DNA of 64,000 nt from Streptococcus tangpeifui. GTDB lineage: Bacteria > Bacillota > Bacilli > Lactobacillales > Streptococcaceae. The position numbers were made by a program, and so were the translations under genes. Below the pieces are notes generated by a model that was not told where the DNA came from, did no database searches, and saw nothing but the letters and a program-made list of their open reading frames with translations. Positions 3,555 to 43,027 of this stretch are shown here, piece after piece. Position 1 is the first letter of the stretch. Every line of letters starts with the position of its first letter. Where the stretch lies: positions 186,001 to 250,000 of the forward strand of contig NZ_JAAKDU010000003.1 of assembly GCF_011038795.1 (NCBI RefSeq), read 5' to 3'.

Positions 3555-3956
3555 ATGAATTTAACAACCATTCACCATGTTGCTATTATCGTTTCTGATT
3601 ATGAAAAATCTCGAGATTTTTATGTCAATAAACTAGGTTTTGAAGTCATCTGCGAGAATCATCGACCGGAACGGCACGATTATAAGCTGGATCTGCGCTG
3701 CGGGAATGCAGAACTAGAGATTTTTGGAAACAAGACTACAGACTCTGCCTATCAGGCCCCGCCCAAGCGCCTATCCTTCCCAGAAGCCTGCGGCCTAAGA
3801 CATTTGGCTTTTCGGGTAGAAAATATCGGAGCAGTGGTAGCTGAATTAACCAGTCTAGGCATCGAATCCCTCCCTATTCGGACAGATGATTTCACCGGGG
3901 AAAAAATGACCTTTTTCTTCGATCCTGATGGCCTTCCCTTAGAACTGCATGAATAA
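3555..3956 (+). CDS. VOC-fold (glyoxalase/dioxygenase superfamily) protein
   Basis: 133-residue single-domain protein starting MNLTTIHHVAIIVSDYEKS, the typical first beta strand of the vicinal-oxygen-chelate fold. A later strand/turn ends in FFFDPDGLPLELHE, with candidate metal ligands His8 and the terminal Glu. The ATG at 3555 follows AAAAGGAGAT; a longer in-frame extension upstream lies inside the ABC gene and is rejected. It lies 13 bases after the ABC pair and probably shares its transcript, ending at the hairpin at 4017-4044. Members act as lactoylglutathione lyases, dioxygenases or antibiotic-binding proteins; the specific reaction is not determinable here. Confidence 0.8.
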   Translation: MNLTTIHHVAIIVSDYEKSRDFYVNKLGFEVICENHRPERHDYKLDLRCGNAELEIFGNKTTDSAYQAPPKRLSFPEACGLRHLAFRVENIGAVVAELTSLGIESLPIRTDDFTGEKMTFFFDPDGLPLELHE

Positions 3957-4016
3957 TAAATAGCACACGTCATACTAATAATGCAAATCTACCTATCATA
4001 TACTCCAGACTGTTCT

Positions 4017-39635: not shown

Positions 39636-40367
39636 TCACACTAATAAGATACCATAGACTAGCAAAACACTGATGATGCTGAATAGGGACCCAATCAGGT
39701 AATATTCTGCAAAAGCTTGGTTTTTCGAAATCCTATCGTAACGAGCAATAGATTTAGCCGTAAATACCAGACCTATGGCTGCAAATTGCCCAAACAATAA
39801 GAAAATCCCCATAATAAGACGCTCCAACAAACCAATAAGAGCACCAGCACCAGCTACAGTTGGTTCGTGGGGTTCCTCAGAAACTTGATACTTGCTGAAA
39901 AAGAGTTTAAACACAATATTAATCGGCTTAGTAATCAAAGTCAAAAATAAGCCCAAACGAATCAGTTCACTATTCTGGCTGATAAGCAATATGGTATCAG
40001 GTTTAAAGCAAATATAGGCAGAAAAGATAGCCAAATAATGCAAAATCTGGTCACCAACAAAAATCACTTGCTGCCAGGATTGGCTGTGCATATTTGGTAC
40101 AAAATAAAACTTAGCACTATCGATAACGACATGGCTAAGCCAAACAACCAAAAGATAGATTCCGGCTGCAGGATTCAAAACAAAACAGACTAACAGAGGT
40201 AAGGCGACAATAATAAGGTGCTGCGATAGCACTCGTATACTGTAAGATTTCTGATCAGCCATTCTTTGGCTTTGCCATTGAAAATCTGCTAGAAAATGGG
40301 CCAATAAGGTCAAGGTTAGCAAAGGGTTCTCTATGAGGTAGTCCGAGAAAGTTAAAATTTCAAGCAT
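39636..40367 (-). CDS. satE: SatE, DUF3307 membrane protein
   Basis: 243 residues from the ATG at 40367, which has GAGGAGGA and overlaps the satD stop by eight bases; a longer in-frame start inside satD is rejected. The N-terminal DUF3307 block is visible: AHFLADFQWQ (about residue 20), ending near VVIDSAKFYF (about 100), with paired His/Asp. Several membrane helices continue to the C-terminus. SatE belongs to the ylxM-ffh-satCDE operon of S. mutans, where disruption was linked to acid tolerance. Molecular function is unknown. Coupling to SatD through overlap suggests they act as a pair. Confidence 0.85.
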   Translation of the reverse strand: MLEILTFSDYLIENPLLTLTLLAHFLADFQWQSQRMADQKSYSIRVLSQHLIIVALPLLVCFVLNPAAGIYLLVVWLSHVVIDSAKFYFVPNMHSQSWQQVIFVGDQILHYLAIFSAYICFKPDTILLISQNSELIRLGLFLTLITKPINIVFKLFFSKYQVSEEPHEPTVAGAGALIGLLERLIMGIFLLFGQFAAIGLVFTAKSIARYDRISKNQAFAEYYLIGSLFSIISVLLVYGILLV

Positions 40368-41058
40368 GGTTCTCCTCCTCGCTACTTTTTTGTTGATCAT
40401 TGCTTCTACTTGCTGCAATAATCAAATGCGCTGCTGCCTTGCGGCTGCGTAAATAATGCTTTAAACCGCTGGCTTTCAGCCGTTTGCTAAAGCCACTGGG
40501 TTTAATTCCTAAAGCATCTGCAATCATTTGATGTTCAAATTGTTCTTGATAGCTCTGCTGTTCCAGCAGGGCTTTTAAAATAGCCAGTTGATTTGCAGTC
40601 CATTTAGACTTAATAAAATCTCCAGAGGCCAGCAGGCTATTAACACTTTCTTGAATCAGCTGATTATCACAAGACAGTGCGATACGCGCAACCCCATAAT
40701 CAGTCTTATCATGAACATGGTTGATAGCTTCACGAGCCCGCCAAAAGGCTGGCCCATCCGAACCGATACTTTGTTTCTCATTAATCGGAGTCAGCATCTC
40801 CCCTAATCCTAATCCAAAACGAATCTGAGTAGGAAACAGCTCCATCTGTATGCTATCAATAATCTGGAAAATATTATCATTAGGTCGTAACAAAGCCTGA
40901 AATTCATCACCCGTTGTTACTGTAAAGGGTGAGACGATTACAGAAGCATAGTCCTTATTAATGACCTGCATCAAATTCAGCAGCTCCTCCTGCACCCGAG
41001 CGCGATCTTTGAGTCCTTTAGAATTGATAATATCGCCAATAAGAGCAAGGTAGGTCAT
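40360..41058 (-). CDS. satD: SatD
   Basis: 232 residues of the SatD family. Residues 1-130 form an alpha/beta domain with blocks MTYLALIGDIINSKGL, VTTGDEFQALL and FGLGLGE, reminiscent of a nucleotide-cyclase-like fold (inference). The C-terminus (about 170-215) contains a helix-turn-helix-like segment, MIADALGIKPSGFSKRLKAS. A strong AAAAGGAG ribosome-binding site precedes the ATG. Its own promoter lies within two palindromes at 41078-41127, so the C-terminal helix-turn-helix could make it an autoregulator. Transcription may also continue from ffh-satC. Function is not established. Confidence 0.85.
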   Translation of the reverse strand: MTYLALIGDIINSKGLKDRARVQEELLNLMQVINKDYASVIVSPFTVTTGDEFQALLRPNDNIFQIIDSIQMELFPTQIRFGLGLGEMLTPINEKQSIGSDGPAFWRAREAINHVHDKTDYGVARIALSCDNQLIQESVNSLLASGDFIKSKWTANQLAILKALLEQQSYQEQFEHQMIADALGIKPSGFSKRLKASGLKHYLRSRKAAAHLIIAASRSNDQQKSSEEENHA

Positions 41059-41077
41059 GGTCTTCTCCTTTTATTTT

Positions 41078-41127
41078 TGTCTATTGTAGCAGACAAAAAC
41101 AAAAATGTCTATCAAAATAGACATTTT
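41078..41127 (-). promoter_or_regulatory. satD promoter embedded in two palindromes
   Basis: On the minus strand TAGACA (41111-41106) and TACAAT (41088-41083), spaced by 17 bases, with TG before the -10. The -10 lies inside TGTCT-attgtagc-AGACA (41078-41095) and the -35 inside AAAATGTCTAT-CAAA-ATAGACATTTT (41102-41127). Both palindromes share the half-site TGTCTA, as expected for one dimeric regulator covering the promoter. Confidence 0.7.
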
Positions 41128-41158
41128 ATGGATTTTCCCTTATCAACCTATATCTTAT

Positions 41159-43027
41159 TTATCGCTCAGTTGCAGCTGAATTCCATTCAGGGTGATAAAT
41201 CACTAGGCCGTCTTTTCGGAAGATAAGAATTCCTCTGTCAGCTAGTCCGTAGGCAATAGCATAAAGAATAATAGACAGACAACTGATCACTGAAGCTGCC
41301 CAAGCTACGCGAGCCAACTGAGTATAATGGTAGGTTATCTTGATCTCATGAGTTCCCTCGGGAAAATGAATGGTCGTAGCGCCAGCTTTACTAAGGGTTG
41401 TCGGAACTTCTTGACCATCAACGGTGACGACCTGTCCCTTATAGCGATAAAAAGGAAGTTCAATCCGCTGTTCACTGCCCGTATCATTAGTGATAACCCC
41501 AGTCGCATAGCTATCCCTAAAACGAAATTTGGATTCTAAAAGAACATCACTGTCTTTAACTATAACCTGATGTCCTAGCTTCTTACCAGTATCAGCTACT
41601 TCATTTTTTTCTCTAGTCGACCTATTGGCATAGTCTCTGAGTGATATAGCGTTAAGAACCCTTTTTTGTTTATTACGATGAGATAGTTCGCTAAAAATGA
41701 TCGGTTTATGACTGGACAACGTCTTAAATATAGTTACTGAACTGCTGATATTAATAGCAGACAAAGCAACCAGAACTGCTATAGTCTCAACATAGAAAAG
41801 TCGCCGTCTACCTACCGATGGATTTCTAAGAAGAAAAAGTTTGGATGCTAAAAACGTAGCAAAGAGGGTGAGAAAACTATTAACTCGCCAAGCAAACTGA
41901 ATAACACTGACACTACTATTAGGACTATCAGGCCATTTGATAACCTTGCTCTCCAATAAAATAAGCAACACTATCCAGCCTATGAGATAGTAGTCTTCAA
42001 TTCTTAATTTTCGAAATTGAAGTAAAATCAGAAGGAGACAGACAATGACAAGAATTCCAGGCACTAACTCCTTAATGGCATTATTAAGGCTAAAGTGAAA
42101 AATATCACCGAGCGTTCTGGTAGAATCGTTTAGTGATATCCCCCCAGGATTATCAATACGACTGTAGCGAAACTGCTCTAACATGGTAAAAAACTGAAAA
42201 GCACTCAAAGCTAAACTAGCCATCACGGCAATAAAGAAATTCCAACAGCGCTGAAGCCTATTTTGCTGAAAAGCAATTGTTGTGATAAAGATTAGACCAA
42301 CTACAGCTGAAGCCATAAAAGCCGTTAAAATATGGCTATAAATAAGCAAAGCCATGCCAAAAGTCAGAGGATACCATTTATGATAATTGCCTCTAACGAT
42401 ATTATAAAGCCCATAAAAAGCTAGGGGAAGAAAGCTCATCGCGATAACCTCGCCAGTTGCAAAGCGAATCACAATATTGCCAAGGCGATAGGCCGAAAAT
42501 ACGTAAAATATGGCAAAAATATGTGAACTAAAAGGGTTATGGGTAATTCCTTTGCCTGAATAGTAAGAAATTAGGTATGTTACCGCTGTTAAGCCATAAA
42601 TATAAAGTATCCAACCACTGTAAAGACTGCCAGTCAACCTATAAAGCAAATAATAAGGATAATAGGTTAAGTAAGGATAGAAAAAATTAACCCCTTGTCC
42701 GACCTTATAAAAAGCTTTGAAATTGACTGGAGTTTCATGGATGCTGGCCAGACTGAGGACACGGTTAAGATGAAAGTGCAAATCATCACCATACAAGGCA
42801 CCGTTGCTCATCATCAAAGGAATGATATAAATCAAACTGATTAATAGAGCTACTAAAAACACCTTTAGCGGATCAGAAGCACGGACTTTAAGATACTTGA
42901 TTAGCATCTGGCAGGTCTCTTTTAAGATAAGCCATAATTTCCTTAGGATATCTAAAACATTATCCAATTGCTTTCGATTAGAACTGTGATTATTTGGCTG
43001 GGGTTGTTGCATTGTATTATTCGTCAT
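41159..43027 (-). CDS. satC: SatC, polytopic membrane protein
   Basis: 622 residues. A Gln/Asn/Ser-rich N-terminus (1-55) is followed by about 12 hydrophobic helices between residues 58 and 415. A C-terminal extracytoplasmic domain (about 430-585), rich in beta strands, and a final helix near 590 complete it. This resembles YfhO-like or glycosyltransferase-C-like membrane proteins (inference). Its position between ffh and satD matches satC of S. mutans. AGGAAAAC precedes the ATG. A hairpin lies between it and ffh. Function unknown; an envelope modification linked to acid tolerance is plausible. Confidence 0.8.
   Translation of the reverse strand: MTNNTMQQPQPNNHSSNRKQLDNVLDILRKLWLILKETCQMLIKYLKVRASDPLKVFLVALLISLIYIIPLMMSNGALYGDDLHFHLNRVLSLASIHETPVNFKAFYKVGQGVNFFYPYLTYYPYYLLYRLTGSLYSGWILYIYGLTAVTYLISYYSGKGITHNPFSSHIFAIFYVFSAYRLGNIVIRFATGEVIAMSFLPLAFYGLYNIVRGNYHKWYPLTFGMALLIYSHILTAFMASAVVGLIFITTIAFQQNRLQRCWNFFIAVMASLALSAFQFFTMLEQFRYSRIDNPGGISLNDSTRTLGDIFHFSLNNAIKELVPGILVIVCLLLILLQFRKLRIEDYYLIGWIVLLILLESKVIKWPDSPNSSVSVIQFAWRVNSFLTLFATFLASKLFLLRNPSVGRRRLFYVETIAVLVALSAINISSSVTIFKTLSSHKPIIFSELSHRNKQKRVLNAISLRDYANRSTREKNEVADTGKKLGHQVIVKDSDVLLESKFRFRDSYATGVITNDTGSEQRIELPFYRYKGQVVTVDGQEVPTTLSKAGATTIHFPEGTHEIKITYHYTQLARVAWAASVISCLSIILYAIAYGLADRGILIFRKDGLVIYHPEWNSAATER

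Follow-up and report, generated by a model that had tools for sequence, protein, structure and literature searches.

What lies between satC and satD in Streptococcus tangpeifui? The window, by which we mean the whole 64,000-nucleotide stretch of DNA analysed here, carries on its minus strand the genes ffh, satC, satD and satE in this order, the presumptive names ffh and satC following the first-pass annotation. The satC-satD gap measures 100 bp (41,059-41,158, minus strand) and holds two palindromes. The features, in minus-strand order, are as follows:

41159..43027, minus strand: satC, the sat operon gene that precedes satDE in this lineage; the other loci mostly lack satC beside satDE
41106..41123, minus strand: operator copy 2, TGTCTATTTTGATAGACA, an 18-bp palindrome with the -35 box TAGACA as its 3' arm
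41106..41111, minus strand: -35 hexamer TAGACA, with a 17-bp spacer to the -10 hexamer
41078..41095, minus strand: operator copy 3, promoter-proximal, TGTCTGCTACAATAGACA, an 18-bp palindrome with the -10 box TACAAT at its centre
41083..41088, minus strand: -10 hexamer TACAAT with extended TG, from the promoter match
41065..41072, minus strand: ribosome-binding site AAAAGGAG, read off the sequence
40360..41058, minus strand: satD, 232 aa, matching PF16264 (E 6e-89), with predicted palm domain and helix-turn-helix
40609..41058, minus strand: SatD residues 1-150, predicted palm domain of the nucleotidyl cyclase/mCpol/GGDEF type (model and fold matches)
40441..40551, minus strand: SatD residues 170-206, helix-turn-helix, then a long C-terminal helix (profile and model)
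39636..40367, minus strand: satE, 243 aa, DUF3307 (E 2e-23), its start overlapping the end of satD

The first-pass annotation had placed the TAGACA and TACAAT boxes each within a matching palindrome, and this is borne out: copy 2 ends in the -35 box, and the -10 box lies in the middle of copy 3. Counted from start to start, the two copies are 28 bp apart. Together with its flanks, copy 2 forms a palindrome with perfect 11-bp arms (41,102-41,127), and copy 3 has 14-nt arms with 93% complementarity; no third operator copy is recognisable in the window.

Taken by itself, the promoter match is at chance level, with 20 promoter-like sites in the 6-kb region versus 16.0 +/- 3.7 in shuffles. The palindrome pair, in contrast, is above chance. 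The exact motif TGTCT-N8-AGACA occurs at four places in the 2.25-Mb genome, two of them in the gap, and when the genus consensus is allowed up to two mismatches, the two gap sites are its only matches in the whole genome. As a 28-bp pair, the sites score 35.3 with a matrix that includes the window locus itself (1 of 90 loci), compared with at most 20.2 in shuffles of the gap, none of 5,000 reaching the observed value. Plain chance as the origin of the pair is thus ruled out by the genome-wide scan and the gap shuffles, along with the genus-wide array described below.

A promoter at this position is reportedly already published for S. mutans, whose sat operon has the same gene set and order as that of the window: Kremer et al. 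reportedly mapped it directly upstream of satD in 2001 and called it constitutive. The abstract on that operon is not known to speak of operators, array geometry, SatD autoregulation or a palm domain. Among the titles, abstract openings and passages searched, we found no paper that deals with operators of SatD, its binding to DNA or a cyclase-like domain in it, and PMC4440532 gave no match for the satD terms used.

Operator arrays and their classes

We found satD in 70 of 147 Streptococcus genomes. Two or more palindrome copies, with the consensus TGTCCGTTATAATGGACA, precede it in 66/68 upstream regions and three or more in 56/68; the count covers 68 of the 70 loci, L037 being missed by the start-codon pattern used in the extraction, although the gene looks intact, and L057 as it comes without a start region. 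Fifty-five of the 68 regions have a three-copy array, the window representing the two-copy form, and the gap between copies is exactly 28 bp in 117/123 cases. In dinucleotide shuffles of the same regions, one site appeared in 13/680 and two or more in none (0/680), so that the half-sites, whose absence upstream of other satD genes had been named as the refuting outcome, prove to be retained before most satD genes of the genus. Over 66 genus loci, blastp sorts the genes upstream of satD into 11 clusters, of which one or more (L036) were probably split off another neighbourhood; these genes were named by likeness to the ffh of the window, topA and trmFO being presumptive names. As the upstream gene differs between loci while the array persists, the array travels with satDE. 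The earlier view of satDE as a separately switched unit inside the sat operon fits the lineage of the window, but elsewhere in the genus the pair sits behind topA, ffh and other genes. The analysis met satDE in many genera belonging to the phylum of the window, and a haloarchaeal plasmid, too, carries a SatD-DUF3307 gene pair.

Beyond the genus Streptococcus, the operators have entirely different letters and keep the tandem layout of 28 or 29 bp. For this comparison 151 of 242 upstream regions were retained after removal of near-duplicates, odd lengths and N runs, and four main helix-turn-helix classes, into which the SatD sequences split, cover 124 of them. Each class has its own operator:

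Class A: TGTCC..GGACA; at least two sites in 85/90 loci; spacing 28 in 148/156 gaps
Class B: ATTC..GAAT, fuller AGATTC..GAATCT; at least two sites in 14/16 loci; spacing 29 in 20/20 gaps
Class C: TCAAGGTTATAACCTTGA; at least two sites in 3/4 loci; spacing 29 in 3/5 gaps
Class D: TCAACC..GGTTGA; at least two sites in 13/14 loci; spacing 28 in 15/19 gaps

With matrices built without the genus of the tested locus, the helix-turn-helix class predicted the operator class in 43 of the 45 loci with an assigned class (47 loci outside Streptococcus were tested), in a comparison in which class and taxon are partly confounded. By class, the predictions were correct in 11/12 (A), 15/16 (B), 3/3 (C) and 14/14 (D), class C being thin at 3-4 loci and its matrices derived from few sites. 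Mean operator scores were 17-22 for the own class and -7 to 5 off-class; in shuffled regions, scored with full-class rather than own-genus-left-out matrices, the 99th percentile did not exceed 7.7 and the highest score was 12.5. Three loci (L104, L106, L126) are without a convincing array, and six (L103, L117, L118, L119, L122, L123) have weak arrays with pair scores of 12.0-16.4. Family f4 has members of type A and of type B, and the operator there is that of the helix-turn-helix and not of the taxon, and in genus g32 of family f6 the operator matches the helix-turn-helix in each of one A locus (L103, weak) and three B loci (L108, L110, L112). Outside the four classes falls the helix-turn-helix of the SatD of L166, where three near-identical tandem copies holding CCATTAAATAGGAAT lie in the 130 bases upstream of satD; of the class matrices, that of class B suits this array best, at a spacing of 29 bp.

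The position of the promoter in the array depends on the class. Of the 90 class A loci, some of which lie outside Streptococcus, 87 were scored, and in 77 of these the -10 box is at +7 of the proximal site; in class D it is at +16 (13/14). Since the promoter phase varies by class and the spacing stays constant, the spacing is probably set by the protein, and the distance of 28 or 29 bp probably reflects contact between neighbouring SatD dimers.

Strict sites also occur away from satD. Among 63 places in the 147 genomes, 42 are upstream of satD and 21 are not: two are scars between genes we take to be topA and trmFO, ten belong to five lipoprotein-gene loci (G030, G093, G108, G133, G027) and nine lie elsewhere. 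The scars are seen in G137 and G085, where topA and trmFO have no satDE between them but still enclose two operator copies (L255:3349-3394; L256:3440-3485). Pairs of sites 28 bp apart precede a lipoprotein gene of about 120 codons at L251:3438-3483, L252:2613-2658, L253:2899-2944 and L254:3208-3253, L252 having an additional pair at 3938-3983, and a single site precedes a small lipoprotein gene at L258:3500-3517; in two of the genomes with such pairs (loci L253 and L254; genomes G108, 83% complete, and G133), satD was not found. The small lipoprotein matched no family above cut-off. One of the nine other places, in G131, has a weaker second copy at a distance of 28 bp, and this operator-like pair (L260:3480-3525) lies before a gene that resembles ribonuclease III. 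Judging by the sites away from satD, SatD may regulate genes beyond satDE, or may have done so once, or the site is read by another protein; the lipoprotein array is possibly a second SatD target or an orphan array, and where satD is missing there are orphan sites or another binder.

Which factor, then, would read the palindromes? The only linked DNA-binding candidate is SatD, as the other linked candidate, SatE, is a membrane protein. An unlinked regulator could instead control satDE through these operators, with the helix-turn-helix of SatD working elsewhere, and the arrays before the small lipoprotein gene, including those of the two genomes in which satD was not found, speak for such a factor. 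Yet the operator class tracks the helix-turn-helix of the satD next to it, both between genera and inside a single family and, weakly, a single genus, and the genome of the window has no further site at up to two mismatches; we hold an unlinked regulator to be distinctly unlikely. This same change of operator class with helix-turn-helix class favours SatD over another repressor, so that SatD is likely the repressor reading the palindromes, as judged from sequence comparison. As operator and satD adjoin and move together, the co-variation speaks for a cis-linked pair rather than for binding as such. The palindromes might, alternatively, act as an RNA hairpin, either a terminator after satC or an attenuator, given that the perfect palindrome of copy 2 is followed by a T-rich stretch on the minus strand and that some class A arm pairs match up to 0.11, and one class B pair 0.19, above the expectation for independent arms. 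They are absent, however, from the terminator matches, other arm pairs match below expectation, and among 155 unique class A sites pair 2 is Watson-Crick in 52% and fails to pair in 48%; moreover, the array overlaps the promoter at a fixed place and persists behind differing upstream genes. Despite the slight excess at some pairs, we set the hairpin aside as highly improbable on the grounds of the pair 2 mismatches and the promoter overlap.

A predicted SatD palm domain and SatE

SatD matches PF16264 over its full length (E 6.3e-89, residues 3-213), and its AlphaFold2 model has a mean pLDDT of 96.9. The helix-turn-helix-like C-terminus noted in the first-pass annotation is supported by this confident model, with helices at 176-183 and 187-197, and by a DeoR profile match (E 0.001). 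As in helix-turn-helix autorepressors, an inverted-repeat operator lies over the gene's own promoter. For residues 1-150, Foldseek returned nucleotidyl cyclases, GGDEF enzymes, Cas10/mCpol and GTP cyclohydrolase III at E 3e-4 to 1e-2; the top row, 9f80, was disregarded for its poor superposition (rmsd 14.2). VIA gave 2qv6_C with Z 9.6 (rmsd 2.7 over 117 residues) and cyclases and GGDEF domains at Z 8-9. OptS of the Panoptes system (9pd0) is also among the fold matches, and sequence identity to the palm-fold matches is about 8-19%. As middling VIA scores are common, unmatched models typically reaching Z 7-8, the assignment leans jointly on the Z of 9.6, the Foldseek E-values, the topology and the aspartates. 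The model thus portrays the N-terminus as a palm of the nucleotidyl-cyclase/mCpol/GGDEF type. D9 ends strand 1 and D51 lies in the turn between strands 2 and 3, so that both would be placed like the metal-binding aspartates of palm enzymes, as judged by topology rather than by residue-level superposition.

SatE has DUF3307 (PF11750) as its sole Pfam match, at 83 bits against a cut-off of 23. Its model (95.2) consists of helices only, as a membrane protein without a separate nucleotide-binding domain, and across 59 sequences D28, Q107, H110, E182, R183, K205, R209 and others are invariant polar residues. Searches for a solved relative found none, with a best E of 1.5 in Foldseek, a best Z of 5.5 in VIA (rmsd 6.2, 109 residues) and a best E of 0.62 by sequence profile. 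Phage records gave no match for SatD or SatE, PADLOC none for satDE, and NCBIfam a single row (E 0.054) far under its cut-off.

The decay of the two genes looks one-sided. Among the 70 Streptococcus loci, 12 have an intact satD with satE broken or absent, four have a damaged satD (G008, G138, G037, G095) and in all four satE is damaged too; a damaged satD beside an intact satE was not seen (Fisher 0.002, with relatedness of the genomes ignored). G037 and G095 are borderline, as by the coverage test satD is full in G037, and both genes are in G095; we counted them as damaged since SatD lacks its first 11 residues and a stop lies within satE of G095. In the 77 genomes without satD, the sole trace of satE is a weak broken relic in G034.

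The palm site follows a related pattern. D9, G50, D51 and E52 are unchanged in 97/97 distinct Streptococcus satD sequences with intact satE, in three of which A104V occurs among the 19 signature positions. Of the eight Streptococcus records without satE, six (L012, L014, L019, L020, L027, L213) show changed palm signature residues, including D9N, D9K, E52K, R80K and R109Q; these apparently form one group, the named members being S. suis. Changes occur in none of seven records with broken satE. Rows outside Streptococcus that scored as broken satE reflect divergence from the Streptococcus-based profile and enter none of the counts. The signature count covers 114 of 162 Streptococcus records after removal of exact duplicates, with L037, L057, L060 and L073 outside the input. 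As the residues are constant with intact satE and altered in six of eight records without it, the palm site seems to be maintained for the sake of satE. Two loci differ in what stands beside satD: at the satE position of L098 (2175-2831; family f4, genus g20) there is a 219-aa protein that has no Pfam match and resembles the SatE profile of Streptococcus in part at best, and the SatD of L270, on the Agrobacterium plasmid pAt, has no annotated DUF3307 neighbour and lies near an annotated antitoxin and a nucleotidyltransferase/HEPN gene.

A proposed switch and its relation to known systems

Our analysis suggests a scenario in which satD and satE form a self-regulated two-gene module, here behind ffh and satC. 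A SatD dimer would bind the tandem 18-bp palindromes at 28-bp spacing through its C-terminal helix-turn-helix, and adjacent dimers would touch on the DNA and so bind cooperatively. As the operators overlap the core promoter, their occupation should block RNA polymerase; SatD covering the -35 and -10 boxes would thus turn off its own promoter. The palm domain most likely binds or converts a nucleotide, which either tunes DNA binding by SatD or acts on SatE. That satDE is such an autoregulatory, probably cooperative switch we regard, on sequence grounds, as well supported and probable. SatD and DUF3307 have so far been families of unknown function; SatD would gain a testable job as repressor of its own promoter, with the exact DNA at hand for tests and specificity swaps open among the four operator classes that occur naturally; its fold predicts nucleotide chemistry coupled to a membrane partner. 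If this is true, SatD adds a family of one-component regulators carrying a cyclase-type domain, which may help to explain why satD scored essential in some S. pyogenes strains and missing from others, as passages of PMC11323703 indicate.

Published observations, each taken from passages of the source, touch on satD in several ways. In one S. gallolyticus strain satD falls about twofold under lysozyme, with nothing reported in these passages for the other strain (PMC5786311); a change of this size in one strain says little on a strong switch. The SatCDE-Ffh cluster of S. mutans rises two- to threefold with fructose (PMC12077213), the small RNA rss03 binds S. suis satD mRNA (PMC12005413), and a Fusobacterium SatD appears as an annotation only (PMC10326533).

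What might the palm domain do? It could be a dead enzyme that senses a nucleotide, making SatD a repressor of the usual kind that acts on the gene of a membrane protein under the control of a ligand, a reading that a fused helix-turn-helix and an autoregulated layout, both typical of one-component repressors, would suit. The identity of D9, G50, D51 and E52 in all 97 sequences suits metal-dependent chemistry, although ligand binding could demand the same, and we regard a dead sensor as a serious contender that stays somewhat short of probable. In a toxin-antitoxin or defence module like Panoptes, a nucleotide made by the palm would restrain the membrane protein SatE and the helix-turn-helix would autoregulate. 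Reportedly, non-polar mutants of all five sat genes of S. mutans, satD included, were viable in the same 2001 study, which weighs against a simple antitoxin role there. As a fold match to SatD, the mCpol OptS is equalled or surpassed by class III cyclases and GTP cyclohydrolase III, SatE has no separate nucleotide-binding domain, and PADLOC gave no match. Speaking for such a module are the presence of OptS among the fold matches, its two active-site aspartates (Asp6 and Asp57 in passages of PMC12657218) resembling D9 and D51 of SatD, the one-sided decay and the palm residues altered in records without satE. In addition, passages of PMC11323703 describe satD as essential in transposon studies of emm1, emm28 and emm49 S. 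pyogenes and yet accessory, being present in 178/249 genomes. We consider the toxin-antitoxin or defence reading doubtful, and unlikely, too, the broader proposal that satDE is a widespread, so far unrecognised nucleotide-signalling module in which SatD is both a second-messenger synthase restraining SatE, as a membrane effector of a new kind, and a transcriptional switch, the whole being a Panoptes-like guard whose own repressor is arrayed on operators at 28/29-bp spacing.

In one-component helix-turn-helix repressors the operator overlaps the promoter, as it does at satD. The deoxyribonucleoside regulator DeoR (7bhy) is a repressor of this kind, to whose profile the helix-turn-helix of SatD matches at E 0.001; its partner domain is sugar-binding, whereas that of SatD is modelled as a nucleotidyl-cyclase-type palm. 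Class III nucleotidyl cyclases, GGDEF enzymes and GTP cyclohydrolase III resemble SatD 1-150 in fold, but the modelled palm of SatD is fused to a helix-turn-helix. In Panoptes, as described in passages of PMC12657218 and PMC12657230, the gene of the palm-fold synthase OptS adjoins the membrane-protein gene optE, the two aspartates are at places matching those of SatD by topology, and an antitoxin-like logic is possible for both. OptS chains, however, have 119-120 residues compared with the 232 aa of SatD, which carries a helix-turn-helix, a term absent from PMC12657218. OptE combines two transmembrane helices with a beta-rich domain, and SatE, as an all-helical DUF3307 protein, differs from effectors of this type with their beta-rich, CARF or SAVED domain.
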